From contig NC_079489.1 of the NCBI RefSeq assembly GCF_020520425.1, positions 17,694,001-17,758,000 of the forward strand: a stretch of DNA of 64,000 nucleotides, given 5' to 3'. Within the stretch, counting starts at the first letter, position 1. Every line of letters begins with the position of its first letter. The DNA is from Spinacia oleracea. Its lineage: Eukaryota > Streptophyta > Magnoliopsida > Caryophyllales > Amaranthaceae. Below the pieces are notes generated by a model. It had not been told where the DNA came from. It worked only from the letters and a program-made list of their open reading frames with translations, and searched no databases. Made by a program: the position numbers and the translations under genes. Shown here piece by piece: positions 4,011 to 59,236 of this stretch.

Positions 4011-7000
4011 ATGGCTTCCTCTGTTTCAACATTATGCTCTATGAATGATTTTACTAGCAAAGCTTCCATTGATGCTATACTTGCTGAAATTAATGCTGAT
4101 AATTCCTCAATACTCTCTGCGTTGATGAAGGAATGTGAGTTTGATTCAATTATTTTTTTTTGTTTTTTGCGATTTTGATTTTCAATTGTGATTAGATTCA
4201 ATTGTGATTAAAATTCTTTTTATATTTGTTTTTTTTACGTTTATAGTTGTATTAGGTTTTAGTTTGATGAACTTTGTATCGTTTTTTAATATTTTGAATA
4301 TTTTTCAGATTTTCCAATTTTCTGGAAAATTTACACTTGTTGTTTTTGATGATTTTGAACATTATTCACCTATATTATGAACATGACTTTGGTATTTACT
4401 TTTGTCAATGTTTTTTTCGTTGTGATTATGTTATTATCGCAACACATTTATTGAAGTTTATGATTATGAACATTTGGTTTTAATATATGAACATTGTACA
4501 ATCTAAATTGAACATCATCTTTTCCCTCTATTTTTTAACAGTGTCTAAAGAAGTAGTAGTGGTTGAAGAAGCATCTGCATCAGAATTAATGTTAAAAGAA
4601 GTTAGGAGTGATGATGAAGCTTATGAAATGTATAATGATTATGCATTTAGGAAGGGTTTCAGTATTCGTAAGGGATTAATTAGGACTAGTCGTAGAACTG
4701 GTTTGTGGATTATGCGCAGATTTCTTTGTTCTAATTCTGGCTTTAAAGATGTTAAGAAGGAAACGTTGAGGAAGTATGAGAGGTCTGAATTGCGTACAGG
4801 TTGTACTGCTTTTATTCAGTTTTCTATTACCAATGAAGGTGTTTGGACTGTGGTGAGGCATAACATGACTCACAATCATCATATGATTCCCGCTGACAAG
4901 AGATACTTGCTTAGGTATCAAAGAGATTTTACAGGGGAGCAGCTCAAGTATCTTAGTTCAATGAAAGCCAGTGGTTGTAGAGTGTCTGATTTGCTTCGTG
5001 CAATGAGAAAAGAAGTCGGAGGATCTCCTAATTTAGGGTTTATTACTGCTGATGCATACAACGCTTTGGCTGCTGAAAAGGCAATGAAACTTGATGGTAA
5101 AGATTGTAATCAGTTAATTAGGTACTTTGCTCAAAGACAATCATCTGAGAGTGATTTTTATTATGATTTTGAGTTAGATGAACATGGACATTTAATTAGT
5201 TTCTTTTGGAGGGATGGAAGGATGAAAAGGGATTATGAATATTTTGGTGATTTATTGGTGTTTGATACGACATACCGGACAAATCGGTATGATATGATAT
5301 GTGCACCATTTGTTGGAATGAATCATCATTGCAATAATGTAGTTTTTGGTTTGGGGTTCCTGGTTAATGAGCGTATTCCTTCTTTTATTTGGTTGTTTGA
5401 ATCTTTTTTGCGATCAATGGGTGGTGGAATACCTCAAACTATAATGACAGATCAAGCTCCTGCCATTGCTGCTGCTATTAGGGATGTGTTTCCGGGTGCT
5501 AGTCACCGTTTGTGTACATGGCATCTTGGAGAGAATTCAAAGAAGAATATTGCTACGCAGAGAGCTATGAAAGGTTTTACTGAGTTGTTTAGTTATCTTC
5601 TGAAGTACTGTGATACTGTTGCTGAGTTTGAACATTATTGGCCAAGGTATATTTCCTTTTTATTCTCATGTTCAATTCTTTATAGGTGTTGTTCAATTAT
5701 AAAAACGTAATATTCATATTCATTTTAACTTTCAGGATCATTAAGCACTATAAGTGTGAGAAGAATGTATGGTTGAATAATTTGTATGTGATTCGAGAGC
5801 ATTGGTGCCGTGCGTATTCTAAGGGTACATTCTCTGGTGGAGCTTTGTCTTCTCAAAGGAGTGAATCGACTAATAATTCTATTAAAGATAGGTTGAGGAA
5901 AACATATGGTTTATGTGATTTTTATCACTTGTTTTTAGATGTTATATCTGCATGGCGTAGCAAAGAAAATCACCATGATTATCGTGTATTGAGGGGCAAT
6001 CGGCATATGGCTGCTGCCAATGTTAGTATACTTGTGCATGCAAGGAAGGTGTACACTGGTTATCTATATGTGAAGTTTGAGGAGCAGTTTCTGAGAGGAA
6101 TTTCATTGAATCAGGAACGTACATTTGAAGATGCAGAAAAAGTTGTTTATCTGATATGGAAGCCTGTTACTGCTGATTTGATAAGGCATGAGGTTACGTT
6201 TAACAAAATTACATTTGAGTCCAATTGTACATGCAAGCATTTTTCTGAAGTGGGTTTATTGTGTTCTCATATTCTTCGTATATATAGTATACATTGTGTT
6301 TCTATGTTACCCGAACAATACATTTTGAAGAGGTGGACGAAAGCAGCTATGTGCAGCGCTGTTGTTGATGAACAATCCTCCAAAGTAAATGTTGTTCCTG
6401 CTTCTGTTTGGAGATTTCAAACTATGAGGAAGTTTGTTCGTTTGGTTACATCTTGTCAAGATTTCCTTGAAGCTAGAGTAGAAATTGATACCACATTTGA
6501 TTTGTTAAGGCAAAAGGTTGAGAGTGTTAGGGGTGCTATTGATTTTTGCAGAGCCGGTTGAGGGCATTGATGTTCCTGGTCACGATGGAAAGGATGGTCC
6601 ATCCATTAAAGATCCAAAAAAGCGTAGAAAAAAGGGTGAGACAAACGAGAGGCCTAAGAGTATTGTTGAGAAGGAGTGTGACAAAAAGAAGGCTTGGAGG
6701 AAACGTGCTGAAAAACATGCTGAAAATGTTAAAGCTAAAGCGCAAGCTTCTGTTCAGGTTATTTGTTTTACATGAATTTTATATGTTGTACATTTATATT
6801 TAAATTTTGAACATTGTTAATGAAAAGTTGAATATCAATTTTTTAGGAGTTTGATGCTTTGGGAAATCCTCTCCTTTATTCTCATCCAAGTTCTGGCTCA
6901 GAGTTGCGTGTATTAGGTTCATCCCTTGAGGTTAGTGTGTGAATATGAATAAAAAAATAGTTTGAGAATATGCTTTCAAAACTAAATATATTTCTTTATA

Positions 7001-7424
7001 ATGTGTAGAAAGGTATTTCAGGAAAGAGTGTAGTACCTGATTCTGTGCAGGTATTATCTTATTTATGAACATTGTTCTTCTAACTTTGAATATTACATTT
7101 GATTAATTGAATATACGAATTTGATGCATATGTAGGAGGATATTTGTGGTAAGAAAGCAATACCAGATGTTGTGGATTCTTTGAAATGTTTTGTTCAGGT
7201 ATTTGAACATATATCTCTTACTTATCAACATTTTTAGTCATATATTGTACATTGTTTTCTAATATTTTATGTTTTTGGTAATGTAGGGTGGTTTTGGTTC
7301 ACAATCTAAGAAAAGGAAAGGAATATATTCGGAATGCGCTCCAATTTCTGCTAACACGGAATTGAATTCTCCTGCTGCTCGTGTATCGCTTTATGATGAG
7401 ATTATGGCCAATTTTGATAAATAA
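4011..7424 (+). CDS. FAR1/MudrA-type MULE transposase, probable late frameshift
   Basis: I read seven exons with good splice sites: 4011-4134, 4542-5646, 5736-6757, 6847-6930, 7009-7050, 7136-7198, 7287-7424. Frames join across every intron. In order: a FAR1-type DNA-binding region (EVRSDDEAYEMYNDYAFRKGF onward), then the MULE DDE core with Asp near residue 283 (FDTTYRTN), Asp near 345 (MTDQAP) and the CTWH motif that follows, then a SWIM zinc finger (CTCKH...LCSH, near 574-592), and a Lys/Glu-rich tail. It would bind the element ends and catalyse cut-and-paste transposition in the nucleus. The catalytic core is open. Near 6540-6560 the frame runs into TGA while the downstream frame (FAEPVEGIDV) is one base off. 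This is either a 1-bp frameshift or missed splicing, and it affects only the C-terminal tail. FAR1-related host genes are relatives, but the mobile context argues for a transposase. Confidence 0.82.
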
Positions 7425-8255
7425 TTTTCGTGATATGTAATTTCCGATATTTTCTATTTTTTGAATTTCATATGTGATACGTTTGATTAACTCGTTTTTC
7501 GATTTATGTTAAACTTTGGTTTAAGATAATTTTTTATGTTTCTTACATTATTGTTACTGTATCATATTTGAACATTTGGTGTTTATCATTGAACATTTTA
7601 AATGAGAATTTGAATAAATGAAATTATAACCCACAAATAGCCTTTAACTATATGTACTTAATTCGCAAATTGTTTCAAACCAAACATTTCACAATCAAAC
7701 ATGTCAACCAAAATGTCATATCAAATCTACATAAACTATAAACAAACAACGAACTATAATTCCAAGGCAATCCACCTGACTTCCGCTACCTTCCGCTTTG
7801 CATCCAGTTCTCCTCGTTTTTTCTTTTAGCAGCAGTCTGGATCCGGTACTTATGTCTGTTTCCATTGTCCAATAGAATTTCAGCACAATAATGCATCCTT
7901 AATTTCCTTATCTGATCAAGCTGCAACCACCCAGAAGAAAATTAAAGAAAATATTGAATATTTATAATAATATATTGAACATTCGCTTTCAAAAAATGAA
8001 CATTATACAAAAGACTTACATTGTTTGCTTTTAACCCAGGATTCCATTCTAATTCAGGGTCTGCTGTGTATGTTTCAACAGGTATACTCCACAGTTTATT
8101 GCATCCTCATTGCTTCGCCATTTCATCTTAATCAGTTCCTCTTTGAACTTTGACAATCCTTGTCCTACCTTGTAATCATTATATTTGTAAAAATATTCTA
8201 GAGCTTCGACCTATATTTTCGATTTTTTAAGAGCAAGTAAGTATTTTTAATGTAC

Positions 8256-8338
<83 letters not shown>

Positions 8339-8350
8339 TTTAATGAACAT
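4355..8350 (+). repeat. Dispersed TGAACAT motif, left part of the MULE
   Basis: Copies of (T/A)TGAACAT(T) lie in introns and spacers near 4358, 4378, 4467, 4487, 4508, 6806, 7066, 7203, 7567, 7591, 7975, 7997 and 8343, plus one in an exon near 5629. Nearly all read on the + strand. The reverse complement is rare here (one near 5666). Confidence 0.75.
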
Positions 8351-8640
8351 TGGATGTTAACTTACCATTTTTGTTGGGTGTCCTTCGTATTTTGTGCCCA
8401 CCTTGACATGTTGTGGCAGCTTCCGGTTGTCTATAATATCTATTGAGCGATCATAGAAGTTAACGCACAACACATAAAATGCGCACTTACACATACCGGA
8501 AAATATATCTCCTTATACGTCTTAAGGCTATGAACACTAGCATTCCTCATTTCAGTTGTCAATCTGTTGTTAAATTTATGAAGCCTTGTGTCCCAGCTAT
8601 CTGTTTCTGGACTGATTTTGAAGGTGTTGATGATCAACTG
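7786..8640 (-). pseudogene. ULP1-like cysteine protease, 3' half (catalytic region), broken
   Basis: These are the last exons of the ULP1-type gene of the MULE, cut off from its 5' half by copia element A. Exon-like pieces, read on the minus strand: about 8640-8366 (INTFKISPETDSWDTRLHKF; then the His region ending AHF followed by LCVNFYDRSIDIIDN), 8196-8040 (KMKWRSNEDAINCGVYLL, with the NCGV catalytic-Cys signature) and 7919-7786 (LDQIRKLRMHYCAEILLDN, stop TAG at 7786-7788). Two breaks are visible. After the putative catalytic His the conserved peptide continues in another frame (near 8473-8482, in a short T run). After NCGVYLL the frame changes before TYTADPELEWNPG. ULP1 peptidases (C48) cleave SUMO-type conjugates; this copy cannot encode a continuous catalytic domain. 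Confidence 0.7.
8256..8335. repeat. (AT)n microsatellite
   Basis: About 80 bp of nearly pure TA dinucleotide, lying in an intron of the ULP1-like gene of the MULE. Confidence 0.95.
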
Positions 8641-8670
8641 CATTTAACAGATATGGACATAAGACATAAC

Positions 8671-9861
8671 TGTTAGATTCGTGGAGTTCCACAAGAGGGG
8701 GGGGGGGTGAATTGATTTTTGCAGTTTTATAAAATTATATGCGATAAGGAACAGAAACAGCAAAATAGAGCAAGCACAATTTAGCGTGGAAAACTCTCTA
8801 GGCCCAATAGAGAGGAAAAAACCACGGCCCCTTTGGGGACTTAAACACTTCTACTAATTAGGCAAAACAACGCAGTTTCTTTACAGGCCTAATATACTCG
8901 GGCTACAATCTGTAAATCACCTCAGATTACAGATGACTAGGAACAACCCCTCGTTGTTCCCTTCTCCTTATGAAACAATCCCTCAATTGTTCCAACTCAC
9001 TGATCTCTCTTGAGATCTTTCACTCTTGCTCTGGTAAGCCTGACTCAGGCTTAACATACATCAATTCAACTTTAATAAAATACGGAATAAATAAAAACTA
9101 AAGTAGATACGAAGATACAAGACCTACCAACCAATACTGCTCTAACTGGGAACAGGAACAGCCTCTTAAAAATAAATACTTTAAAGGTGATACCTGAAAG
9201 CTCCGGTTAATGCTAATGAGTTTGATGAAAAACTCGAGATGATCTTTTTGGTATATTTATAGTGATTCTGTGATTTACCCTAGAATCCTAGACTCCTAAT
9301 TCTAATCAAATTAGGACTCTCTTAAAGATAGAATTCCATTAAGAAACTATTTAATCTTTAAACAGGTTTTACACTTATTCGGATTCTACTTACCATATAC
9401 CTAAAGATTTTAGTCATCTTCGAACTCTTTCCAAAGATTATCTTTAATTTTTACCGAGTTAATTTAATCATATTAAAACTTCTTTTAATACGGATAATCA
9501 TTTGGTCTTACACCTAGTATATTATGCTAACTCTAAGAACTTAGGAAATGACTCTTTAAGACTACTGTTCCCAGACCTAGCAGTATGATCGATATAATAA
9601 CCTTGTACCTTTTCGTATTTACCATATACTTCCTAATGCTTCATAGAAGCTTAATTCTTGCAGCTTCATTTGTATTCCTTGACTTTGTCAACTTGTTCTA
9701 TTGCTGCTTCACGGATTAATTTGACTTGTTCTCTTTCCTTAAAGGCTGCTTCATTTGTCAATCCATATTGAGAGTAGCTCTTTCACTTATAGACCTGTCA
9801 TTCTAGATTATAGAATGTAAGCACAAATAAGCTTGTCATCATCAAAACTCAGGGATCAACA
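8671..9861 (-). repeat. 3' LTR of element A
   Basis: 1191 bp, starting TGTTAGATTCGTGG and ending GGATCAACA on the + strand. It matches 30587-31776 except for scattered substitutions and a longer G run near 8697-8707. The left flank ATAAC is the target duplication. Confidence 0.95.
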
Positions 9862-9875
9862 ATTTCCCCCTTTTT
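9862..9875 (-). other. Polypurine tract of element A
   Basis: Read on the minus strand this is AAAAGGGGGAAAT, directly abutting the 3' LTR, where plus-strand DNA synthesis of an LTR retrotransposon is primed. The following bases to 9978 are A sequence with no ORF. AATGA (9979-9983) is the left target duplication of the B LTR. Confidence 0.85.
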
Positions 9876-10286
9876 GATGATGACAACCTTTCAACTTGAC
9901 TGACAACATAACATGGTGATGAGCATGGAAACAGACGTTTTCAGAACTATAGCTTGAACCATGTATGAGAAAAATCAGAATGATGAAGGAAATAATGCCC
10001 TTGGTCCAAGTATGCATTCTATGTTAAGTCTAATAAATGCGGTTCAGTATTAATTAACAAGTTAATAATTCAGTGAGATCAAGTGAGCTGAATGCCTAGC
10101 TAGAGGCCGCTTCAGTTCAAGTGGAATTAATGATATTAATCCACAGCTTACTCTTGACTGAACCCGTAGGGTCACACAAATAGTACGTAAACGGATCAAG
10201 TATTTAATGGCATTAAATACTCCATCTATGGATATTCGGAATCGACGGATCTTGGTTTCAGTGGGAGCTGAGATCGTCACAGGCAA

Positions 10287-10615
10287 GAAATGAATACTCC
10301 GGAAACGATGATATTGCCGGAAACGGAAATATGGATCGTATCGGAAATATAAATATTATCCAAGTCGTAGATGTTGCCGGAAACGGAAACATGGTACGTA
10401 TCGGAAAATATTATCGGAAATGGAAATATTGCCGGAATCGGAAATATTGCCGGAAACGGAAATATTGTCAGAATCGGAAATATTATCGGAATCGGAAAAT
10501 AATTCCGGAAACGGAAATATTAAATATTTGTTCGAAACGGAAATTAATTCCGGAATCGGAAATATTAAATATTGTTCGTATCGGAAATGAATTCCGGAAT
10601 CGAGAATTTAATCGG
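10287..10615. repeat. Degenerate CGGAAAT array inside the B LTR (U3)
   Basis: About twenty copies of CGGAAA(T/C), often as CGGAAACGGAAATATT or CGGAATCGGAAATATT with variable spacing. The same array lies at 22014-22343 and, inverted, at 47360-47690. It is upstream of the TATA box, where U3 enhancer elements sit. Confidence 0.8.
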
Positions 10616-10996
10616 AAGCGTATCGTACGAATTAGCATCGGACGAGGCCTGCCAGACGAAGGCCCAGCACGAAGGCGGGCCATCGCCCAGCAAGCCAAGC
10701 GCAACAACCACACGCCAAGCATACGACCAGGCCCAGCGCAAAAGCCAGGCCCAGCCGAAGCTTGGGCGCGCGTGCGGGGCTGCGACGAGTGGGCTGGCGC
10801 TGTGCGTGGGCCGGAAGGCCTGCGTGCGGTGCTAGCGTATTACTCGAAGTGTGTTACTCGAATCCTAAGGCTACCGGGATTTGTCATATGATTAAATCTA
10901 ATCCTAAAAGATTTAGTTTATTTAATTAGAGTCCTAGTAGGATTATAATTAAATAAATTAGTATCCTAATAGGATTCCAAATCCTTTTCCATAACT

Positions 10997-11006
10997 CTAT
11001 AAATAG
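10997..11006 (+). promoter_or_regulatory. TATA box of the B LTR
   Basis: CTATAAATAG, followed by AGGTGCCTAGGG and a GC-poor leader. The same box is at 22724-22733 in copy b and inverted at 46982-46991 in the solo LTR. Conservation in all three copies supports it as the core promoter. Confidence 0.7.
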
Positions 11007-11759
11007 GTGCCTAGGGTCACATATTTACAACGAGTTTTCAAGTATTCAAAGTGAGTTTTTGAGAGAAAAATTCAGTCACACATTTGCCTAAAAGTGCCGA
11101 AAATAATAGTACCTTAAGGGCGATTCTAGTTGGTCAATCTTAAGGCGGATCCGGACGTGCTGTGGACTATCTACGGAGGGACGACACTTGGAGTCCTAAA
11201 GACTTGTTCTTGTTCGGTTCGGGCGCAGCTAGGGAAGGCACGCAACAAAGAGTATGCATCTAAACTATGCTAAATGATTATGTGTAAATAATATGTTTTC
11301 CTGGCTTTATGGTTTTTCCGCATGATTTATGAATTGTCATATGTATCATAACCTAACAAATGAACCAAGTTGCCAATATAAGAATCTCTTCCCCCTTTGG
11401 AATGATCAAAAAGAGGGGATGTGAAAAACGATATAAAGAAGGAAATAATGCAGAATAATATTACCCTCCCAAACAGTGAACCTCATTGCAGCTCAAGTCG
11501 GTCAACGAGTTGGACCGCACCCCTGCAAGCAAAACTTAGGCAAAAACAGCATATAAAACAAGAAATGTAAGTACCCTGCAAGTTAGTGAGATCAAACCAT
11601 CAGAACGTAGGAAAAGTGCGCTAATTAAAATTAGCCAAGATAAACCCGGCGCAGCAACACAAAACACAATGTTCAAGTTTCAAACACCAAACACCAAAAA
11701 AAAATATTGTTTTATAGGTAACAGGAAGGGGGGATTTTTGTAGTAAGGATTTGGCAGGA

Positions 11760-13334
11760 TCAGGGGTGAGGAGTGGCAGGATCATCTTCAGCAACTTCTT
11801 CAATATGGACCACCTCCTCCTGGATCATATCAGCTAACCTCTCTGTCATATCATTGAAGAATTGAGCTTGATCCACCTGCACCTGAACCATCAGCTCCTG
11901 AAGTGACTTGATTGAGGCTTGAATGACAATGTTGTCCTGCTGTAGCTGATCCACCTTGTCCATTAATAAGTTGAGTGTGGTGTCATGTGATGGTGCCGCA
12001 GACTGGGTTTCTCCATCCTTCTCTGAATCAGAGACATCAACATGGTACGCTGATGGAGGAACACCCTTGGAGGAGCTAGCAATGCGACGACTGCGCCTAA
12101 TAGGAGGGTTAGAAGCGGGTGAATGATGAAGAGACTGTGATTTTGCAGGAACCAGAGGGGGGGATCTTTCTTTAGGCCTCAAATCAACTGGCCCTCCCTC
12201 CGAGTTCCCTCCTTTGACCATACAAGGAAACACAGTCTCACCTTCTTCTTCGGACACATCGTCCTCTTCCTCTATCTCCTCACCTTCTTCTTCCTCAAGC
12301 TGAGCTTGGTCACCTGGTCCCATCTTCCCCACGCAGACAACACCATCTACGACCCTCAGACTAATCCCATTTAGACAGGCTCGAGACAGGATATGGGCTT
12401 GGGTAAGGGGCTCAGAGGTGTAAGAGGTAAGATCAACTCCCATTTTTCTCATGATAAAGGTGAGAAGAGACCCATAGCCAATGAAGTTATTTTGGGAAAT
12501 GCAGTGGGTGAGGTGGGCGATGAAAATAGCAAGAAAGTTAATTTGATGTTGATTTTCAAGGAGATAGATATAGATTAGATCGAGTCTGCTAGCTAAGGCC
12601 CGTTTGTCTGTACGAGGAACCAGACCCCTGCGGACCACATTGAATAGAACCTTTTGAAAAGGGGTGAGAGACGACTGGTTAAGGGCCTTTGGTACCTTCC
12701 CTGGTCCCCCAAAGTACGAGTAGACTTCTTTCATTGTAGTGCTCCCTAGTTCAATTTGACCCTTCCCCTTATAATACACTTCTTCCCCCAAAACAGGAAC
12801 CTTAAACCATGATCCCAAATTTTCAGCTGTAAACCTAATTTTTGTCCCATTGACACTGGACTGACAGACCCCTTCAGAATACACAAAATTCGAACAAAAT
12901 TCCCCCATAGCTTCTGGAAACATGCAGGTATTTGAACAGACTTCAAACAAAAACGTCCACCCCTGTGACTCTAGAAATTCCAATAGTTCGACAAACCCTA
13001 CTTCCCTACACCAAGCAAAATCGACACTTAACCCTTGAAGCATGCGATCATTAGGAAAGAAATGATACCTAGGTTCCTCTGGTTTGACTTTCTTCTCCAT
13101 CGGTGGTTGGAGTTCCCCCTGAGCAGGTGCTGGCTGCTCCTTCTTCACTAAGAACTTTCTTTTTGTAATCAATTTCGCAGCAGACTTGGAAGCTGGCTGC
13201 TTAGTTGGAGGTTTTGGGGCCATGTTATCAGTGGGTGGTGGTGGAATAGTTTGAAGGGGAATGGCGGTGATAATCAGAATTGAGGGAGAATGAGGGTTTG
13301 TGGAATTTGGAAAGGTGAGGCGGTAGAGGGTCAT
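11760..13334 (-). CDS. Element A third ORF, duplicate copy (plant transposon protein)
   Basis: A 524-residue open frame nearly identical to 23488-25062, with a few substitutions (for example Cys for Gly in the SNTGMF region and Ile for Thr near the C-terminus). See that entry for domains. It is still open, which fits a recent duplication. It is cut off from a complete element: upstream on the minus strand only the pol tail remains, so a 5' LTR, gag and most of pol are missing. Confidence 0.75.
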   Translation of the reverse strand: MTLYRLTFPNSTNPHSPSILIITAIPLQTIPPPPTDNMAPKPPTKQPASKSAAKLITKRKFLVKKEQPAPAQGELQPPMEKKVKPEEPRYHFFPNDRMLQGLSVDFAWCREVGFVELLEFLESQGWTFLFEVCSNTCMFPEAMGEFCSNFVYSEGVCQSSVNGTKIRFTAENLGSWFKVPVLGEEVYYKGKGQIELGSTTMKEVYSYFGGPGKVPKALNQSSLTPFQKVLFNVVRRGLVPRTDKRALASRLDLIYIYLLENQHQINFLAIFIAHLTHCISQNNFIGYGSLLTFIMRKMGVDLTSYTSEPLTQAHILSRACLNGISLRVVDGVVCVGKMGPGDQAQLEEEEGEEIEEEDDVSEEEGETVFPCMVKGGNSEGGPVDLRPKERSPPLVPAKSQSLHHSPASNPPIRRSRRIASSSKGVPPSAYHVDVSDSEKDGETQSAAPSHDTTLNLLMDKVDQLQQDNIVIQASIKSLQELMVQVQVDQAQFFNDMTERLADMIQEEVVHIEEVAEDDPATPHP

Positions 13335-13801
13335 AATTATATAGGAGAGGTGGTTGACGAGAAATGAGGAGTGATAAGGATGAGGGTTTGAATTTCAAAA
13401 TTCCGGGAAGTGTGAGGGGTTTGATCTGATGCTGCTTAACTTTATAGGCGAAGAATTTGGAATGTGAAGGGTTTTGGTGTTGGGAATTGGTGTGTGTGGG
13501 AAGCGTGTGTAAGTGAACAAAATGAAAAGTCATGCATGCACCGGGTTCATATGATTCATTGAACCAAAAATATGCTTTCCATTCTTTTTTTATTTTCCCA
13601 CACTAATGCAAAATAAATACAAGTCAAGTGATTAGTGTAATTACCTTAGTGATGCACAGACGTGACTGTGGTAATACACAGCTGGGTTTTGCAACAAGAT
13701 TGTATTTGTTAGTCCATTCAAGAATATTTAAACATAATAAAAACCTTTTTTTTTTTTTAAATCATTCAAGTAAGGTTAGAGAAACATATTGGCTCAAAGT
13801 A

Positions 13802-14295
13802 TCACTTAATTTTAATCATACCAAGTTCTAACCTCAGTTTGTCGTGTCTGTCCCTATTCAAGGGTTTTGTTAAGATGTCAGCTACTTGGTCTTCAGTGGG
13901 ACAGAATTCAAGTTTTACCAATTCCTTTTCGACATAATCTTTTAGAAAGTGATGCCTGATATGTATGTGCTTGACCCTTGAATGATGAACCGGATCTTTG
14001 GATATACAGATGGCACTTGTGTTGTCACATAGTATGGGAACACACTTTAGTTTCATGCCAAAGTCCCTTAGTTGTTGCTTGATCCATAACATTTGGGAAC
14101 AACATGATGCAGCTGCAACATATTCGGCTTCTGTTGTAGATAGAGCAACTGTGTTCTGTTTCTTAGATGCCCATGAGACTGCACATGCTCCAAGGAACTG
14201 GACCATTCCTGATGTGCTTTTCCTGTTAACTAGATCACCTGCATAATCAGCATCTGTGTACCCTTTGAGGTCAAAATGATCATAGTTAGGATACC
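13802..14295 (-). pseudogene. Element A pol fragment (RNase H tail only)
   Basis: Encodes roughly the last 165 residues of A pol: YTDADYAGD at the break, [25 protein letters not shown] and the C-terminal ADILTKPLN. It ends at the duplication break at 14295, so the protease, integrase and reverse transcriptase parts are absent. The intact counterpart is 25530-26023. Confidence 0.9.
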
Positions 14296-23085: not shown

Positions 23086-23090
23086 AATGA

Positions 23091-25529: not shown

Positions 25530-28500
25530 TCACTTAATTTTAATCATACCAAGTTCTAACCTCAGTTTGTCGTGTCTGTCCCTATTCAAGGGTTTTGTTA
25601 AGATGTCAGCTACTTGGTCTTCAGTGGGACAGAATTCAAGTTTTACCAATTCCTTTTCGACATAATCTTTTAGAAAGTGATGCCTGATATGTATGTGCTT
25701 GACCCTTGAATGATGAACCGGATCTTTGGATATACAGATGGCACTTGTGTTGTCACATAGTATGGGAACACACTTTAGTTTCATGCCAAAGTCCCTTAGT
25801 TGTTGCTTGATCCATAACATTTGGGAACAACATGATGCAGCTGCAACATATTCGGCTTCTGTTGTAGATAGAGCAACCGTGTTCTGTTTCTTAGATGCCC
25901 ATGAGACTGCACATGCTCCAAGGAACTGGACCATTCCTGATGTGCTTTTCCTGTTAACTAGATCACCTGCATAATCAGCATCTGTGTACCCTTTGAGGTC
26001 AAAATGATCATAGTTAGGATACCATAAACATAAATCGTCAGTGCCCTTTAAGTATCTAAGAATCCTTTTGACTGCTGTAAGATGAGATTCTTTAGGGTTA
26101 GATTGAAAACGAGCACAAACACCTACACTGAAGGCAATATCTGGCCTGCTTGCAGTAAGATAAAGTAGTGAACCAATCATACCTCTGTACCTTGTTTGAT
26201 CTACGCTTTTACCTTCTTGATCCTCATCTAGCCTTGTGGTTGTTCCCATGGGTGTATGATTGCTTTTTGCTGACTCCATTCCATACTTCTTTATGAGATC
26301 CTTGATATATTTCTGTTGGTGAATCATGATTCCTTGTTCCGTTTGCTTAATTTGAAGACCTAGGAAGAAGTTTAGTTCTCCCATCATGCTCATTTGAAAT
26401 TCTTGCTGCATCAAGTCAGAAAATTCTTTGCATAGATCCTCATTAGTAGCACCAAATATAATATCATCAACATATATTTGTACAATTAGTATGTCTGTGT
26501 CTCTTGATTTAAGAAACAGGGTTCTGTCAACCTTACCTCGATTGAATTTATTGTCTAAGAGAAAATGAGAGAGACGTTCATACCAGGCTCTTGGGGCTTG
26601 TTTTAGTCCATACAATGCCTTGTCTAGATTATACACATGTGAGGGATATTCTGGATCTTCAAATCCAGGTGGTTGTTTCACATAAACTTCTTCTTTAAGA
26701 TATCCGTTTAGGAACGCACATTTTACATCCATTTGATAGAGTTTGAAACCCATGTATGAGGCAAATGCTATGAGTATGCGTATTGCTTCCATTCTAGCTA
26801 CTGGGGCAAAAGTTTCTTCGAAGTCTATCCCTTCTTGTTGATTGTACCCTTTGACAACCAATCTGGCTTTGTTCCTGGTTATAGTTGCATGTTCGTCTTG
26901 TTTGTTTCGGAATACCCACTTTAATCCTATTACTCGATTGTTCAGAGGTGTGGGCTCAAGGTGCCATACTTTATTCCTTTCGAATTCATTGAGTTCCTCC
27001 TGCATGGCAATGATCCAATCAGAGTCAGTTAGTGCCTCTTTATAATTTTTAGGTTCAATCATGGATAAATAAGCATAGAAAGCACAAAAGTTTTTAAGTT
27101 GTGATCTTGTTGTTGTTCCTCGTCCTAGATCACTAATTATTTGGTTAAGTGGATGTGAACTTTGATGTTTCCAAGGTCTTGGTTGGAATGGTGTTGTGAC
27201 TTCTTCAGTATGCTGCTCCTCTTGTTCATTAGTCTCTGTATGATCATCAGCTTGTATCTGTTCCACTTCAGTTGTGCCTCCTTCAGGTGTTTCGTCATTC
27301 TGAGCTTGTTCTTCTATTTGAGCAGTTTTTCTTATTTCTTCGTCTTCTGTTTCTCTTGTAAGTCCTAGTTCAAATTTTCCATCAGTGGCTGTACCTGTAG
27401 CAAAGTTTTGGGAATCAGTTTCATCAAATATAATATGAATGCTTTCTTCCATACACATGGTCCTTTTGTTGAATACTCGATATGCTTTGCTATTTATGGC
27501 ATATCCTAGGAATATGGCTTCATCACTTCGTGCGTCAAATTTTCCCAGTTGATCCTTTCCATTGTTGTGGACGAAACATTTACATCCAAAGGTTCTTAGA
27601 TGTGTTATTGAGGGTTTTCTTCCTTTGTACAGTTCATATGGGGTTTTATTTTTGATGGCTCTAATTAGCACTCGATTAAGTATGTAGCATGCAGTATTTA
27701 GAGCTTCAGCCCAGAAACTTTTGGGGAGTCCACTAGCAATCAGCATCGTCCTTGTCATGTCTTCAAGAGTTCGGTTCTTCCTTTCTACCACTCCGTTTTG
27801 TTGAGGTGTTCTAGGAGCAGAGAAATTATGATCTATTCCTGAGTTTTTACATAGATCGTCAAATCTTTTGTTTTGGAATTCTGTACCGTGATCTGATCTG
27901 ATGTGGACCAGTTTATGATTGCTTTGTCGTTGGACTTTAGATGCGAAGGCCAAGAATTCTTCAAATGTTTCTTCCTTGTTGGCTAGGAAAATTACCCATG
28001 TGTATCTTGAGAAGTCATCCACAATCACTAGCACATACTTCTTTCCACTCCTGCTTTGAGTTCTCATTGGTCCACATAAGTCCATGTGGATTAGCTCAAG
28101 TGGTCTTGTTGTGCTGATTATTCCCTTAGATTTGAAAGATGTTCTAACCTGCTTTCCTCTGATATAGGCATCGCAGGCTGACAGTTTTGTAAACTTTGTA
28201 TTCGGAAGACCTGTAACTAGATTTTTCGAACTTAGCTTGTTCATTAGAGAAAAACTAGCATGACCAAATCTTTTGTGCCATAACAATGGATCATCTTCAA
28301 TAACACTGAGGCAGGTCAGATTGGAGTGAGGAACAGAGTTGAGGTTGACCACATATGTGTTCCCTTTTCTTTGTCCCTCTAAGATTACTGATTCAGTGTT
28401 ACTGTTGATAATTTTACATTTATTCGAAGAGAACTTTGCATAATTTCCTTTATCACAGAATTGAGAAATGCTTAACAAACTATGTCCTAGACCTTCAACT

Positions 28501-28703
28501 AAAAATACATTATCGATGGAGTGAGACTTTGACTTACCGACCTTACCAATGCCAATAATGTTACCTTTCTTATTATCGCCAAAAGTCACAGTTCCACCTT
28601 CATAGGTCGTGAGTGAGAGAAATCTGTTTCTATCTCCTGTCATATGCTTGGAACAACCACTGTCTAGGTACCATATGTTGTTCCCCCTCACTTCGACCTG
28701 CAT
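25530..28703 (-). CDS. Element A pol: protease, integrase, reverse transcriptase, RNase H
   Basis: 1057 residues, uninterrupted. Order: aspartic protease with [13 protein letters not shown] (Asp14); GAG-preintegrase ([11 protein letters not shown]); integrase with [16 protein letters not shown] and VVERKNRT supplying D, D and E; reverse transcriptase from [11 protein letters not shown] with [22 protein letters not shown] and IYVDDIIFG (near residue 742); RNase H with [10 protein letters not shown] (near 903), STTEAEYVA and ILCDNTSAI. It would copy and integrate element A and may act in trans on relatives. It starts 8 bp after the gag stop, in a different frame from gag, so expression needs frameshifting, re-initiation or a separate start. 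All expected catalytic residues are visible. No premature stop occurs. Confidence 0.96.
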
Positions 28704-28710
28704 AATGAAT

Positions 28711-30522
28711 TTAGTTAGAGTTTTTAGGAACCCAGCATAGCTTGGGTTCCTTGCTTGGAATCAAATCTCTTTTCTTTACCCATTTAGTTTTGACGAGATC
28801 CATATTCTTTTCCAAGCCCCTTTGATTTTTAGGACATGTGACTCTATAATGACCAATTAGCCCACAAAAGGTGCAAACAATATCACTGTAGAGATCTACT
28901 CTGGTTTTTCTATGGTGACGTTTTTTGTGGTTGAAGCCTAAACCTTCGGTGCGTTTGGTTCTAGCTTCCTCTATCCATTTTGGTGTTCCTTCTATTCTGT
29001 GTCTGGTCTTTTTAGCCAATTCTCCCTCTAGGTAGGTTTTTTCTTGGTGGACTTTGACTAAGTCTAGTTGGATTTTTTCTAGTTCCTTTTTATAGAGGGT
29101 TTTAGTCTTGGAAATTTCTAGATCAATCAGTTCTTGTTTTAGCCAGGAATTTTCGTTCCTCAAAGCCTCATAGGTTTCTTTTATTTGAAGGTTCTGATCA
29201 AACAGGTTGAAGAAACGGTTATCAATAGATATGTTGGTGATTTTTGACCATTCTAATTCTTCAGTGAGTTTTTTAATGGTGGACTTATGTTCTTTTTCAG
29301 ATTCTTGTTTTTCTTTTAAGAGATCCTCATAATCGCATGTGAGACAAGACAGTAAGTCAAATATTTCTAGTTTAGACATAGAATCAAGTTTGCTTTTAAT
29401 TTGAAAAAGACTTGCCTGGAATTTGTCTGACTCAGAATCTGAACCATCTTCTTCATGATCATCTACAAGACACAGGTGAGCAATTTCCTCATTAGGTTGC
29501 TCCTGTTCTTCATCTGAGGATGAGTCACCCCATGCAGCAATCATAGCTTTCCTCACATCAGTCTTTGAAAAGGAGTTTCTGTTGTCTCGGAATCTTTCTT
29601 TGGGAGTTTCTTTTCCTTTTCCTTTTTCTTGTTCCCATAGTGGGCAGTCCCTAATACGGTGTTCCAAGTTCCCACATTTGTGACATCCATTGTCAGTTTT
29701 GGAGAATTTCCTATTTGGTTTGCCTCGATGATCTCCCTCTTTGTAGTTCCTAAACATCCTTCTGAACCTTCTAGCAAATAGAGCAGTTTCCTCATCTTCC
29801 TCTGAGTTTTCATCGTTTTCAGTTTTTAGAGCCAGTGCTTTGTTTCTTGGGTTCTTAGAGGTTCTAGCATTTAGTTGTAGCTCATGGGTTAAGAGAGATC
29901 CAGCAAGTTGTTCCAGGTTGAACTTTGTAAAGTCCTTAGTTTCCTGTAGGGCAGTAACCTTGGCCATCCAAGGATCTTGAGGAAGACTTCTTAATAACTT
30001 TCTCACTTGTTCCTCGGGAGTTATGATTTTTCCCAGAGAATTTAGTTCATTGATGATATTTGTGAATCGAGTTATCATGTCTTGAATTGATTCAGAAGTC
30101 TTCATTGAGAATAATTCATATTGGTGCATCAGGAGATCAATTTTTGATCTTTTGACTTCGTTTGTTCCTTCATGGGTAACTTGGAGCAGATCCCAAATTT
30201 GTTTTGCATTTTTGCAACCCATTACTCGATTATGCTCGTTTGGACCAAGCCCACAGTGAAGGATCTTTACAGCCATGGCATTAAGCTCAAGTTTCTCGTA
30301 GTCTGCTTTGTCAAATTCTGTTATAGGTTTAGGAACAGTTTCTCCAGAGGTGGTCAATTTGGTGACTTGGAAGTCTCCTACTTCAATGACTCTCCAAACT
30401 TGGTAATTTTCAGCCTTGATGAAAATTTCCATTATAGTCCTCCAGTAGGAGTAGTACTTTCCACTAAACATGGGTGGTCTTTGGGTAGAGTACCCCTCTT
30501 CTAGTTTCTCCGTAGTATTCAT
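28711..30522 (-). CDS. Element A gag (two zinc knuckles)
   Basis: I place the start at ATG 30522 ([13 protein letters not shown]). The frame stays open back to 30585 only through the primer-binding site and no earlier ATG exists. About 603 residues. Order: copia gag/UBN2-type region ([20 protein letters not shown] to about residue 240); zinc knuckle [14 protein letters not shown]; acidic linker; long coiled-coil segment ([24 protein letters not shown] onward); and a second zinc knuckle near the C-terminus, [14 protein letters not shown]. It forms the particle and packages RNA. Two knuckles separated by a coiled coil make this gag longer than most copia gags but suit SIRE-like elements. It ends 8 bp before pol in another frame. 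Confidence 0.92.
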
Positions 30523-30571
30523 TGTTCCAGAATCGTTTTTCCCGTCAGAGTTACCTGCAGTAAAGGGTTCT

Positions 30572-30584
30572 GGCTCTGATACCA
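30572..30584 (-). other. Primer-binding site of element A (initiator Met tRNA)
   Basis: On the minus strand TGGTATCAGAGCC lies two bases after the 5' LTR. It is complementary to the 3' end of plant initiator methionine tRNA, the usual primer for copia elements. Confidence 0.93.
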
Positions 30585-30586
30585 AT

Positions 30587-31776
30587 TGTTAGTTTCGTGG
30601 AGTTCCACAAGAGGGGGGGTGAATTGATTTTTGCAGTTTTATAAAATTATATGCGATAAGGAACAGAAACAGCAAAATAGAGCAAGCACAATTTAGCGTG
30701 GAAAACTCTCTAGGCCCAATAGAGAGGAAAAAACCACGGCCCCTTTGGGGACTTAACACTTCTACTAATTAGGCAAAACAACTCAGTTTCTTTACAGGCC
30801 TAATCTACTCAGGCCACAATCTGTAAATCACCTCAGATTACAGATGACTAGGAACAACCCCTCGTTGTTCCCTTCTCCCTATGAAACAATCCCTCAATTG
30901 TTCCAACTCACTGATCTCTCTTGAGATCTTTCACTCTTGCTCTGGTAAGCCTGACTCAGGCTTAACATACATCAATTCAACTTTAATAAAATACGGAATA
31001 AATAAAAACTAAAGTAGATACGAAGATACAAGACCTACCAACCAATACTGCTCTAACTGGGAACAGGAACAGACTCTTAAAAATAAAGACTTTAAAGGTG
31101 ATACCTGAAAGCTCCGGTTAATGCTAATGAGTCTGATGAAAAACTCGAGATGATCTTTTTGGTATATTTATAGTGATTCTGTGATTTACCCTAGAATCCT
31201 AGACTCCTAATTCTAATCAAATTAATTAGGACTCTCTTAAAGATAGAATTCCATTAAGAAACTATTTAATCTTTAAACAGGTTTTACACCTATTCGGATT
31301 CTACTTACCATATACCTAAAGATTTTAGTCATCTTCGAACTCTTTCCAAAGATTATCTTTAATTGTTACCGAGTTAATTTAATCATATTAAAACTTCTTT
31401 TAATACGGATAATCATTTGGTCTTACACCTAGTATATTATTCTAACTCTAAGAACTTAGGAAATGACTCTTTAAGACTACTGTTCCCAGACCTAGCAGTA
31501 TGATCGATATAATAACCTTGTACCTTTTCGTATTTACCATATACTTCCTAATGCTTCATAGAAGCTTAATTCTTGCAGCTTCATTTGTATTCCTTGACTT
31601 TGTCAACTTGTTCTATTGCTGCTTCACGGATTAATTTGACTTGTTCTCTTTCCTTCAAGGCTGCTTCATTTGTCAATCCATATTGAGAGTAGCTCTTTCA
31701 CTTATAGACCTGTCATTCTAGATTATAGAATGTAAGCACAAATAAGCTTGTCATCATCAAAACTCAGGGATCAACA
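30587..31776 (-). repeat. 5' LTR of element A
   Basis: 1190 bp matching 8671-9861. On the minus strand it runs from TGTTGATCCCTGAG to the primer-binding site. A TATA-like ACTATAAATATACC at 31161-31174 (minus strand) is the likely promoter. The right flank ATAAC is the target duplication. Confidence 0.95.
31161..31174 (-). promoter_or_regulatory. TATA box in the 5' LTR of element A
   Basis: ACTATAAATATACC on the minus strand, about 600 bp into the LTR. It is conserved in the 3' LTR at about 9250-9263. Confidence 0.6.
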
Positions 31777-31784
31777 ATAACCTT

Positions 31785-34700
31785 CTGAACATAATACATA
31801 AAATTCAGAACATTCTGTGAACATTGATTTTAACTTTCTGAACATAAGACATAACAATATGAACATAGGGGATACCATTCTGAACATAAGACATACAATT
31901 CTGCACATTGAAATCAATAATAATATCCAGAACTGTATACCACAAGTATTATACTTACAAAGGGGACTGTGGAGAAGTAGAACTTAGTCTTGGAACATTT
32001 CCCGTTTAAGATTGAAGACCATGTATCAACGATAGCGCTGTCTATGTATCCATCACGACCCAATGTTTTCATCTCATCTCTGTCTATCGAGTTTTCTCCA
32101 TCAAAATATAATACTTCCCTACAATATTGATTCAACGATGTTATGAAAAATTATCCCAAAAGATAAAAATAATAAAATGAATGTTATTTTAATTATGAAT
32201 GTTATTTTAATTATGTACTTGTCGTCTCCATCATCAAACGCATAGTCTGTAATTATTGCTCTCATGTTCTCCACAGTCTTGAATAAATCTTTGTACTTGA
32301 CCATGAACGGTGATTTGAAGCAAGCAGGTACGTCTCGGAGTTCCCGCTGAGGCCGTTTTTGGGGCTCTGGTATTCTGCATTGAACATATAAACATTTTCC
32401 AGAAGAATTTTGAACATTAAACATATAACATATAAAAGTAATTTGAACATATAACAGTAAAGGTTGAACATATAACAGTAAAAGTTGAACATATAACAGT
32501 AAAAGTTGAACATTTACACAAAACCATTATATAAGTAATTACTTCAAAATATATGATTTGAACATATGACATTAAAAGTTGAACATTTACACAAAACCAT
32601 TATATAAGTAACTACTTCAAAATATATGATTTGAACATATGACATTAAAAGTTGAACATTTAATAGTAAAAGTTGAACATTTATCAAAAACCATTTTATC
32701 ATTCATAACTTCAAAATACTTGTTTAATAATTACATATTTTTATAATATTCAGTGTTCCACATTCAAATTCATATCACTTGAATCCTACCCTTCTGTGAC
32801 ATCGGTAACCGCAGCCACTTTTTCACCAGCCACTGCTGCTGTGTGTTCCTGAACATTCTCAGTCTGTGGTGCCCCCACTAGTTCACCAGCCACTGCTGTT
32901 GTGCCATCCCTGACATTCCCAGTCACAGGTGTTTCCAAAACATGATCAACAGTTTGTTTTGATGATCCCAGATTTAGATCGAGGTTCAGGTGCTCGTCTT
33001 TATTTTGTCCCGGGGATTTTGAAGTTGATGCTCCATCCTTATCATTGGGTATTTCTGGGGTTAGGCCAATTCCTAGGCTAAAGGGGCGATTTGGATTAAA
33101 CTGGACGTATTCGTCTTCCTCATTTGCAATCCTTATGTTCTCCTTAGCAACTCCCTCTGCAATACTCCTTTCAATTTCTTCTACAGCCATCAAGAATTCA
33201 TCAGTCCCATACAATTCTTCTTCTTGACTAAGAATTGATGGTTCTCTTGCCATTTTCCCCATGAACTCTTCAACATTCTTCACCAAATTGTTGTTCGGGA
33301 AGAGTTCTTGAGCCCTTTTCAGTTTCGTGCTCAACATAGACAAGTTAGCCCCTAAATTGTTCATTAACATAATGAAATCCATCATGAAATCCTGTAAAAA
33401 AAACATGTAAATATTTCAAATATGAAAATCCAAATTCTGAACATAGGACATGAATTTCTGAACATTAGACATACAATTCTGAACATTATATGAACTTTGA
33501 AAATAACTATCTGAACATAGGACATCATTCTGAACACAACATTCTGAACATTGAAAATAACTTTCTGAACATAAGACATAACTTAATGAACATAGGACAT
33601 AAAATTCTGAACATTTTATGAACATTGAAAATTACTTTCTGAACATGACATAATTCTTAAACCAACATTCTGAACAAAAAACATAAAATGCTGAACATTG
33701 AATATAAATTTCTGAACATTAAAAAAAAAAATATATTTACCTTCGGGTTTTCTTGTTGTTGAACATTATGTGCTTCTCCTTGCACATTTTGTTGCACAGG
33801 TTGTTGCACAAGTTGTTGCACAGCTTCTCCTTGCACATTATGAGGCACATTTTCTTGAGGCACATTTTCTTGAGGCACTTCTGGTTCCGGCAATTCTATT
33901 TTGTCAAGAATTCGGCCAAGCCCATACCCTTTCCTTTCCTCTATTATTCTATCTTTAACCATTTTCTTTGTCCAAGTTGATATCAGGGGAAATGTTCTTG
34001 GTTGTTCTACCCTTTTCTTCATGACGCGGTCGAAGTAGAATAGCTATGCATTAAAATTAAAAAGTGTATTAATATTAAAAAACATTTGAACATAACTAGT
34101 TAAAAATTGAATATTTGTTAATGACAATGAGTTATATTAAACGTATTAAACGTATTAATCAGACATGACTGTGTATTCAGCATGATGTATTTAAAGTTGA
34201 ACATGTTGTATTAAAAGTTGGACATGATGCATCAAAAGTTGAACATATTGAACATATTAAAAGTATGAATCAAAATATGCAATCATTGAACATTAAATAT
34301 TAGAACATGTTGAATTCAAAGTTGAACATATTTAATTAAATGTTGCACATGAGTATGAAAAACAACATGCAATCATTGAACATAAAAATAATTGAACATG
34401 ATGAATTAAAAGTTGAATTTCATGTATTAAACATTGAATTAAAAAGTACTTAACATTATTGGTTAAATGTTGAATACCTGTAAGAAAGGCAATGGTCCTT
34501 TGAAAAATCCTGTCTTATTTTGTTTCCAGTCTTCCACTGTAGCATCCAAACTCGATAGGACATATTCACACCAATCCAAATTTCTGATCTCATTACGATC
34601 CATCATGGATAACAGAAATCTGTAGTTTGCTTGTGTACTTTGACTGGACTTCATGAATATATTCACCGCAACCACTAAGAAGTTAGTCATGAAGTTATCA

Positions 34701-37700
34701 TGCGGTTCACAACCTATGAATCCAACTTCTGTTGTGTATCGCTTGATTATCTTTGAAACACTAGGTGCTCCAGTTCTGATATTCCAGGTTCTCCTCCATT
34801 CTGTGAGAAAATTTTTGTAATCCTCGGTATCATGGTCAAACTTGGACTCAATGATTCTGCGACCACCCATTTGAAGACCGTACACAATGTGTACATCATC
34901 CACCTCCAATCGGATTGTGTTACCACGCGGTAAGTACAGTGTTGAAGAATTTTCTTCATACTGATCAAGAAGCCAATAACAAAATGCCTGCATTCATATT
35001 TAAAATTTAATTAAGTTTTGAACATCGTTATTTATATATTGAACATGCTACATTAAGATATGAACATCAACCTAAACAAAACTGTGTTTTTTACTTTTTA
35101 ACATTTTTAAAAACTAAAAATTACCTGGTCATTTTGGGGCAGATTAACAGTGAGCAATGGTCCTAACCCGATTTCTTGAATAGCGTTTCTTTGATTTTCG
35201 GTTAGTTTAGGAACCCATTCCATAAAAGCTGTATGATTAACCCTCACCCCTGTCTTTTTGATATCCTTTTTCTTCTGATCCTCTTCCTTGCCAGCTTTAC
35301 GAACTGGAGTTTCTGTCTTTTGTATGACTTGTTTTTGTGTATTCCTTTTCGTTGACGGGTTATTGTCATCGTCTCTATCACTATCAGAATGTTCTGACAA
35401 CTGTGTAATGTTGACATCCTCATCATCTTCATCATCATCTTCAGATGAGGACACATTCTCACTTCCCTCATATTCAGGCTCCATATCATTCTCCATATCA
35501 TTTGCAGATGTTCTTGTCATTCTCTTTTCGAAAGAGAAATTCGTCACATTTTTCTCCTTTTGCTTCCTATTAGCAATATGCTTTCTTTTCGATGGAGGTT
35601 CATCTTCAACTTCATCCTGCTTTGCTTTCTCCTTCTCTATCCTTGCAACCTCCAATTCAGCCTTCTTCTTTTCGGCTGCCAATTCAGCTTTCTTTTTTTC
35701 TGCTGCCAATTTTGCAGCTTCCCTCTCGGCCTTCCTTCTTTCAGCTAACTCTTTTAAAGCTAATTTCTTTCTTTCAGCTTCTTCTTTCGCAGCTAATTTT
35801 TTAGCTTCGGCAACTTCCTTTCTCTTTTTATCAGCTTCCTCTTTTTCAGCTTTTTTCCTTTCAGTTTCCGCTTTTTTCCTTTCAGCTTCCTCTTTCTTCT
35901 TAATATCAGCTTCCTCTTTCTTCTTCCTCTCAGCTTCCTTTATCAACCTCTCATCTTCCTCTTTTTTCTTCCTCTCATCTTCTTGTTTTCTTTTTCTTTC
36001 AGCTTCTTCAGCTATAGCAGCCTCTCTCATCTTCTCCATTTCAAAATCATCTTTTTTCTTTTGTTGCTGCTTCTTTATTTTTAATGCTATTGCTTCTGGA
36101 CTTGCCATTTCATTCCTACACCACATATGGTGAATATGAACATTAGTTTTTGGAAGTTGAACATAGGTTGTAGTAAGTTGAACATAAGTTGTACTAGGTT
36201 ATTATAGGTTTAACATTGTTATCAAATTGTTGAACATGAGCCCTAAAAAACTGAATACCACAATTTATCCAACAAATATAGTTATTATTTACAAATTGAT
36301 CAATATTTTTTAAAATATGAACATGATATTTTAAAAGTTGAACATGAGTTTTGCTAATAATGATCCTTTAAAAACATTTGAACTTGAGATTTCAAACATT
36401 GAACATGATCCTTTAGGAACTGAACATCCCAAAACTAAAGACAATAACAATAGAATATTTATTCAGAACGTAATAAGATCAAATTATTACCTTCCAGGGG
36501 ACATACTTATCCTGCGATTGTTATGCTGAATATGCTTTTTGTGTTTAGAAAACTTCAATACTTTACGCAGAATCCTTGTCCTAGCAGCATGCATACCATC
36601 GTCATTGTCTTCCTCCTGAACCGTAGCAGCTTGAACCACAGCAGCTTGAACCGGAGCAGCTTGAACCGGAGCAGTTTGAACTGGATCAATAACTTTTTCA
36701 GCTGGAGCTTTTACTGTGAATGTAATTTTGGACTTTTTCTGATTCTTTGGTTGAGGGTTCCTATATAAACAACAACTTTTTAAAATTATAAACCATATAG
36801 GAACAAAATTCCTGCATTCATATTTTAAAAAAATTAACGTTTTGAACATGATTCATTGTATGTTGAACATTATAAGTTAAGAATTTGAACATCAATCTAA
36901 ACAAAAGTGAATAGCACACTGAACAATTTTAAACATCAATTGAACATTACTGATAATATATTGAACACGATGAATTAGGAAATGAACATATAAAATGCAT
37001 GAAATCAAAAAAGCAGCAACTCCAACAACAGCACCACAAACCACAACAACATTTGATAATATTTATATTCTAATTATAAAAGTGAATATAAACAGTTACA
37101 TACGCATCATTCACGGTTTCCTCCATATATGATTCATTTATGTTTTTCAGCAGTATTGGATCCACCACTTTTGAAGTTGTTGCAGGTTCTCGTTGCTTTC
37201 TCTTCTGTAGGATTGCTAATGGAATATGTTCTTCTGCATCGATCAGCCTGAGGCTGCAAATATAACTATTAGCTTCTTATAATGATCAACTGCCAAACAG
37301 TTTTGAACATAAAAATTCACTCACGTTTGAGAATCAGATTCATCTGCTGTCACTGGTTTCACAGAATTCAACGGTTTTGGATTTCTGCACAGACAAATCA
37401 AACCAAAAAATTTTTTACAACATATATGAACATGTTATTTATTATAACCTATTTGAACATGATGTCTCACATTTTGAACATTTTTTTCATATTTTGAACA
37501 TGAATATTTCATGCTTCCACACGCTCTAGAACAATGATAATATTTAGATAGGGACACTTCAGATCTTATAGTAAATGATAATGAACATTTGGTCCAAAAC
37601 TATGAACATGATCAATTTCAAAACGTAAATTCACATACAACTTCTAAATTGAGTAAAAAATGTTTAGAACGCTTAAATTCACTTACAACACAGCATCTGC

Positions 37701-37800
37701 AGTACTCGATTCCACTCGATTGTTCTTTTTTCTGGAAAATGCAAAAAATTATGAACAAAAATCAAATAAAAATGTTCAAACGCGAAAAATTATGAAAAAA
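31785..37800 (+). repeat. Dense dispersed TGAACAT motif, right part of the MULE
   Basis: Dozens of TGAACAT(T/A) copies fill the introns and flanks of the ULP1-like gene. I count about eleven between 32370 and 32670 and about fifteen between 33430 and 33720. Nearly all read on the + strand, which is antisense to this gene. Exons are largely free of them. One reverse copy is near 37770. Frames rich in Cys-Ser-Glu on the minus strand here (33416-33625) are products of the repeat. Confidence 0.85.
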
Positions 37801-59218: not shown

Positions 59219-59236
59219 ATTACTTATTATTATTAT

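Follow-up and report, generated by a model that had tools for sequence, protein, structure and literature searches.

Organization of a split MULE in spinach

The window, i.e., the complete stretch of 64,000 bp of spinach DNA that was analyzed, carries a MULE that is split by a copia insertion nested in one of its introns (Table 1). The borders of the MULE are given by an 11-bp target-site duplication, AATACTTTATC, which occurs only twice in the window, at 3671 and 38260, and by comparison of the ends with those of other copies. Membership in the MULE superfamily is indicated by a match to PF10551 (91.1 bits) and by the length of the duplication, for which 9 to 11 bp is the criterion. Inspection by eye revealed no inverted match between the two ends of the MULE in the window; in L029, a copy from a more distant family described below, palindromic GGGTACAGCC words lie close to the left end. 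The outer LTRs of the nested insertion are 98.2% identical to each other.

The transposase has a FAR1 DNA-binding domain (PF03101, 73.9 bits), the MULE domain already mentioned, and a SWIM domain (PF04434). Additional small exons at the 3′ end of the gene, up to ~7423, are approximate.

TABLE 1 Features of the MULE in the window
Feature	Position	Strand	Remarks
Left target-site duplication	3671..3681		11 bp, AATACTTTATC; unique pair within window
MULE (split by nested copia insertion)	3682..38259	+	Target-site duplication; ends compared with other copies
Transposase gene	4011..6561	+	Exons 4011-4134, 4542-5646, 5736-6561
TGAACAT array, left part	4356..8350	+	15 plus-strand sites
Antisense gene, remaining Ulp1-like region	7789..8643	-	Pieces 8360-8643, 8052-8210, 7789-7941
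Nested LTR-retrotransposon (copia)	8671..31776		In intron; flanks ATAAC at 8666-8670 and 31777-31781
TGAACAT array, right part	31786..37609	+	61 plus-strand sites; 21-bp units
Antisense gene	31959..37916	-	11 exons, spliced to an open frame of 1105 codons
Opposite-facing TGAACAT pair (37772, 37950)	37772..37956	-	Right end of MULE
Right target-site duplication	38260..38270		11 bp, AATACTTTATC; unique pair within window

The product of the antisense gene contains Lys/Glu-rich repeats, a plant mobile domain (PMD) encoded by exon 34478-34987 and the next exon, and the beginning of an Ulp1-like region, the remainder of which is encoded left of the insertion. The PMD match is weak (PF10536, 35.9 bits versus a cutoff of 34.9). 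In the window copy, the Ulp1-like frame is broken near the segment with the catalytic His, and no Ulp1 match was returned by Pfam for the single Ulp1-like pieces of the window; similarity to residues 885-1071 of P0001, the antisense protein of a related family, is present at the corresponding place in copies L002 and L003. The spinach protein P0122 of NCBI is 96% identical to the antisense product and, as judged by eye, supports three of the splice joins, and its PMD match, at 33.6 bits, is under the cutoff of 34.9. DUF1985 was not found by hmmscan in the spliced regions of the window (E ≤ 1), in P0001 (E ≤ 1), or in P0122 (E ≤ 10); the families matched instead were PMD or Peptidase_C48. Unlike Pfam, UniRef names P0122 as a DUF1985 protein. 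A structure of P0122 predicted from an input of three sequences had a mean pLDDT of 36.7 and was set aside, and a search of PDB sequences gave a single match at chance level (E 0.43).

Distribution of TGAACAT in the element

An earlier note on this DNA, made from the sequence alone, had claimed that TGAACAT(T/A) occurs dozens of times in the MULE, both left and right of the copia insertion, almost only on the plus strand and hardly ever in exons, and that it is rare in the remaining window. All of this holds for the 7-bp core. Direct counting in the MULE (3682-8673 plus 31772-38257, 11,478 bp) gave 76 sites on the plus strand and 3 on the minus strand, compared to 2.4 and 2.2, respectively (maximum of 8 for each strand), in 1,000 dinucleotide shuffles, which rules out base composition as the cause of the excess. 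The other 52,522 bp of the window contain 4 sites on the plus strand and 9 on the minus strand. No other 7-mer in the MULE has a higher strand asymmetry. The plus-strand sites start at 4356 and end with that at 37603, flanking the copia insertion on both sides, and their density peaks at up to 34 per kb in the introns of the antisense gene, in the right part of the array. Only 4 of the 76 (5179, 5629, 32850, and 33760) touch modelled exons, in an exon set that is approximate in part, and the other 72 lie outside. The eighth base of the proposed motif did not stand: T (35 sites) or A (24 sites) follows the core in only 59 of the 80 plus-strand sites of the whole window, and the position is therefore not part of the fixed core. 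A splicing signal or a codon effect, which the note had argued against, is ruled out, since one strand carries the motif throughout, in spacers and in genes of either direction.

The minus-strand sites in the MULE are at 5668, 37772, and 37950. A pair similar to the latter two, at about the same mutual distance, is present in L002 and L003. The outermost parts of the element are otherwise free of the motif, with no site on either strand in the left 674 bp (3682-4355) and, apart from this minus-strand pair, none in the right 650 bp.

Spacing of the sites

Adjacent sites in the MULE are most commonly 21 bp apart (29 of the 53 spacings of up to 80 bp), which corresponds to about two helical turns, and 21-bp tandem arrays were found in the element by TRF. 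The best period of the adjacent spacings is 10.5 bp, with a mean cosine of 0.74. The 19 spacings that are not close to multiples of 21 bp lean toward the same phase (0.30; P = 0.003 versus uniform spacings). The positions flanking the core have a low information content among the MULE sites, which were picked by the exact core.

In most copies that bear TGAACAT, the best-fit period is 10.1 to 11.0. A period of ~10.5 bp is not favored in L009 (8.6) and is weak in L007. The arrays of a small element adjoining L003 have periods of 11.3 to 11.8, and phasing is weak, near 11, in L051, a copy with TGTTCTTT instead of TGAACAT.

Conservation of the core

Divergence was determined by aligning the element in the window to 11 diverged copies; the near-identical copies L002, L003, L010, and L011 were left out, as were the sites touching exons, so that 72 of the 76 sites were used. 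The TGAACAT core had diverged at 46 of 1,593 positions (2.9%). When the same 7-bp window was moved by 7 to 14 bp, the divergence was 13 to 19%; random noncoding 7-mers gave 11.4% (standard deviation, 1.4; minimum of 7.4% in 2,000 draws), and 7-mers of equal composition gave 12.6% (442/3,517). The zone of low divergence is 7 to 8 bp wide. Pooled over all 15 copies, the values were 60/3,070 for the core and 777/8,740 for the near flanks. The contrast between core and surroundings may be raised by anchoring of the BLAST alignments on the motif words. The presence of TGAACAT in the 63% family described below is evidence independent of these alignments. A low divergence restricted to the core is as expected for a binding site under selection.

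Related copies and families

The genome (894 Mb in 242 contigs) has 111 places matching the transposase. Long stretches were taken for 15 related copies, and the sampling also comprised short loci for the first 30 places, 4 kb of one copy with a transposase identity of 55%, and 1.5 kb of one copy with 50%. Motif and strand bias recur in related MULEs: read in the direction of the transposase, TGAACAT is biased to the plus strand in 15 of 15 related copies, 13 of which have no 7-mer of higher strand asymmetry. Counts per copy (plus/minus), for stretches of 10 or 14 kb with flanks included, range from 8/0 and 8/2 up to 82/4, the last in a copy with both ends. L003 has 24 minus-strand sites, but 21 of these belong to a separate element located past the right end of L003. 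In a second family, with a transposase of ~63% identity, all 16 copies are biased to the strand of the transposase, with 6 to 16 sites each on that strand and one minus-strand site among all 16; in L029, inspected over its full length, the sites are in introns, chiefly intron 1. Across the genome, there are 2,710 pairs of TGAACAT spaced 21 bp apart, compared to 38 for the reversed pattern. Among the 100 matches listed of these 2,710, all on contig C1, 90 fall into 7 clusters, each of which is confined to one strand.

A PMD or Ulp1 match was found in 11 of the 15 related copies. Of the other four, two are derivatives that retain dense arrays with no PMD or Ulp1 match in 10 kb, i.e., L014 (42/0) and the copy at C1:111.3M (17/2), and in both the right end is near. 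P0001, the protein encoded in antisense in the 63% family, is 37% identical to the antisense product of the window over the region searched and has a Peptidase_C48 match (PF02902, 20.9 bits versus a cutoff of 20.7) but no PMD match; over all, the antisense proteins of the two TGAACAT families are only ~37 to 45% identical. When 31 of the 74 P0001 matches were compared with 66 of the 111 transposase matches, 29 of the 31 places matching P0001 (residues 434-777, whole or in part) were located downstream of a transposase match, in the opposite orientation. Thus, the transposase, the antisense PMD/Ulp1 gene, and the one-strand array have been kept together over deep divergence.

A different word is found in L051, a copy with a transposase of ~55% identity. 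Its 4-kb stretch contains TGTTCTTT 33 times on the plus strand and 3 times on the minus strand, with 2/0 for TGAACAT, and a rough exon model places 1 of its 38 TGTTC[TG]TT sites within an exon. TGTTCTTT retains the TGTTC/GAACA core on the opposite strand. In L052, assigned by eye to the same group, the motif words are in both orientations and less pure. The third family may have moved to TGTTCTTT, as seen in the single copy L051. Both words form arrays in the non-autonomous element of 1.5 kb that adjoins L003, as though this element could respond to either system.

Comparison with known systems

The earlier note knew of no described MULE feature of this kind, but a one-orientation motif pattern of the same type has been described for VANDAL MULEs (Hosaka et al. 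2017; PMC5735166). VANDAL21/VANC21 of Arabidopsis is an anti-silencing system with the motif YAGTATTAY, the motifs of VANC systems are specific to the family, and a related family, VANDAL6/VANC6, has a second motif, AGTTGTCC/AGTTGTAC; the VANC domain given in that study is DUF1985 (PMC5735166). The spinach element resembles VANDAL21/VANC21 in being a MULE, in having a family-specific motif mainly in introns, intergenic regions, and terminal noncoding parts, in tandem repeats that vary between copies, and in a companion protein with variable peptide repeats. It differs in its motif and its FAR1-type transposase and in a companion that has a weak PMD and an Ulp1-like region and no DUF1985 match. 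The pair of TGTTCTTT and TGAACAT parallels the differing motifs of VANDAL6 and its relatives, albeit in another species and with another type of transposase. Kaonashi (KIU) is similar in that an Ulp1-carrying VANC gene acts likewise in non-TIR MULEs, with motifs in noncoding DNA, and is distinguished by its type of transposase, according to a review (PMC13317346).

Tested against the hallmarks of VANC-type systems, the spinach element has a dense, one-orientation motif in noncoding DNA and tandem repeats that vary between copies. Helical spacing is found in the window and in most copies, with L009, L007, L051, and the element adjoining L003 as exceptions. A family-specific motif is indicated by one copy (L051), yet the 63% family shares TGAACAT. 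The Ulp1 region of KIU-type proteins is represented by the homologue P0001 and by the matching exons in L002 and L003. DUF1985 was not detected by hmmscan, and the transposase, judged by its FAR1 domain (73.9 bits) and not by a tree, is not of the VANDAL type. Helical periodicity of motif spacing in a VANC-type system was reportedly described by Sasaki et al. in 2022, in a paper on KIU with "in eudicots" in its title.

In the table of PMC6446971, VANDAL transposases are listed with SWIM and CCHC but not with FAR1, "PMD and/or DUF in half the members" is given for VANDAL, and FAR1 appears under Jittery and in half of one Hop sub-group of plants, oomycetes, and fungi. Several MuDR-like plant groups have a PMD gene, often in antisense, according to the same source; for these groups, the available part lists no FAR1 transposase and mentions no motif arrays (PMC6446971). 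Since PMD is listed there for VANDAL as well as for other plant MULEs, it is in itself no difference from VANDAL. The FHY3/FAR1 mobile element of Kochia scoparia, 16 kb long and situated at the EPSPS locus, is among the closest known systems; the available part of PMC6808082 describes no noncoding motifs for it. Because of the FAR1-type transposase and the missing DUF1985 match, we refrain from classifying the spinach element as a VANDAL and from calling its protein a proven VANC. Literature searches, the coverage of which extends to few subscription journals, yielded by title, among the matches listed, no relevant paper on TGAACAT in transposons or on VANC with helical periodicity and none describing such an array in a FAR1-type MULE.

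Possible function of the array

In its orientation, density, avoidance of exons, organization in tandem repeats, and use of words specific to a family, the pattern matches that of VANDAL, and we conclude that the array is most likely targeted by a VANC-like protein, namely the product of the antisense PMD/Ulp1 gene. We give a probability of roughly two in three to the full reading, i.e., that the sites serve as docking sites for the antisense PMD/Ulp1 protein encoded by the element and that this protein works in anti-silencing as VANC does for VANDAL. The transposon would itself encode a sequence-specific DNA-binding protein, most likely the antisense product with PMD and Ulp1-like region. Sites in one orientation and, at 21 bp, mostly on one face of the helix would let this protein assemble on members of its own transposon family, including their deletion derivatives. 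DNA methylation would then be lifted at the copies bound, and its loss would permit transcription and transposition while the remaining genome would still be repressed. We infer both the antisense protein as the binder and the loss of silencing as the outcome. Counted against this reading are the weak PMD match, the absence of DUF1985 in Pfam, and the FAR1 domain of the transposase, which is unlike VANDAL; phasing that is not universal and the two minus-strand sites in the right end were counted in the same way, as was the fact that one TGAACAT is common to two families, which means a slower change of the motif than reported for VANDALs.

Binding by a protein of the element's own was one of three ideas in the earlier note and is the best supported of them, by the footprint of selection, the spacing, and the recurrence; the FAR1-type domain proposed there as the binder fared less well. 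A transposase has to act at the ends of its element, but these ends lack the plus-strand motif, and the FAR1-domain transposase therefore seems less likely as the binder than the antisense PMD/Ulp1 product. If the FAR1-type transposase recognized TGAACAT for transposition itself, in the manner of subterminal repeats elsewhere, the N-terminal FAR1 DNA-binding domain and the specificity of the motif to the element would be explained, as would the two minus-strand sites inside the right-hand 650 bp. However, recognition of the ends does not need a spread over 11 kb, the left 674 bp are empty, the right 650 bp are empty on the plus strand, and most sites lie in the middle introns, so that we regard this function as unlikely.

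It is very unlikely that the array is merely a 21-bp minisatellite that spread neutrally by slippage and unequal exchange and inherited its strand bias from the founder unit. Growth in tandem by itself produces a single orientation per array, and the 21-bp arrays detected by TRF are what such a process would leave, but it does not account for a fixed core amid surrounding bases of little information (in sites chosen by the exact core), for a core whose rate of change is about one-fifth that of its flanks, or for the same word in the same orientation in separate introns, many copies, and the 63% family. Use of the repeats by a host factor or at the level of RNA (as a source of small RNAs, in antisense regulation, or in nuclear retention) would agree with the arrays being in introns of both genes, and tandem repeats are possible targets of RNA-directed methylation (PMC5735166 and PMC10398659). 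This use is nevertheless quite unlikely: a host factor leaves the different motif of the sister family (one copy, L051) unexplained, and an RNA-level role needs neither helical phasing nor a shared orientation in genes of opposite direction.

Implications

The retention of TGAACAT in two deeply diverged families suggests that the arrays may be cross-recognized. Self-directed anti-silencing could, tentatively and at somewhat less than even odds, be a general module of plant MULEs and not a property of VANDAL only, here present in a FAR1-type chenopod lineage with a PMD/Ulp1 protein. Strand-locked, helix-phased, exon-avoiding words within a transposon family offer a cheap screen for such systems in raw sequence. 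If the reading of the array as a target of the antisense PMD/Ulp1 protein is true, a new natural DNA-recognition module would be at hand, and a job would be suggested for transposon-linked PMD/Ulp1 genes such as those for P0001 and P0122, which NCBI labels only as uncharacterized proteins. Sequence-specific anti-silencing by DNA transposons would then reach FAR1-type MULEs with a PMD/Ulp1 protein.

Additional repeats in the window and beside a related MULE

Directly past the MULE end of L003, a related copy from the same genome, lies a 1.5-kb nonautonomous element (L033/L034) with GGGTACAGCC-type termini. It carries 19 sites each of TGTTCTTT and ATGTTCATT, all of them on a single strand (19/0 for both words). 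Within the window MULE, AGTTGAAC was found 11 times on the + strand and never on the − strand. This word differs by a single letter from AGTTGTAC, the motif of VANC6, the anti-silencing protein of Arabidopsis VANDAL6 MULEs (PMC5735166), but the near-match may be due to chance. Beyond the bounds of the window MULE, TGAACATTTGTT occurs twice with a spacing of 30 bp, after an open frame (63376-63885).

Coordinates of the features
Feature	Position	Strand	Identity
L033/L034 element	G000:C6, about 12.33-13.83 kb, transposase direction of L003
TGAACATTTGTT pair	63945, 63975
Nested insertion, outer LTRs	8671-9861, 30587-31776		98.2%
Nested insertion, 4.3-kb direct repeat	9984-14295, 21711-26023		99.4%
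Non-LTR retrotransposon	52927-59269	−
Antisense-gene exon	33741-34043	−

The nested retrotransposon insertion contains a direct repeat, and the non-LTR retrotransposon encodes DUF4283, zinc knuckle, endonuclease, reverse transcriptase, and RNase H-like domains.

The tabulated antisense-gene exon encodes NVQ and NVPQ peptide repeats, whose coding DNA resembles the TGAACAT motif on the + strand (TTGAACATT, site 33760). Thus, the array may have expanded into coding DNA at this exon.
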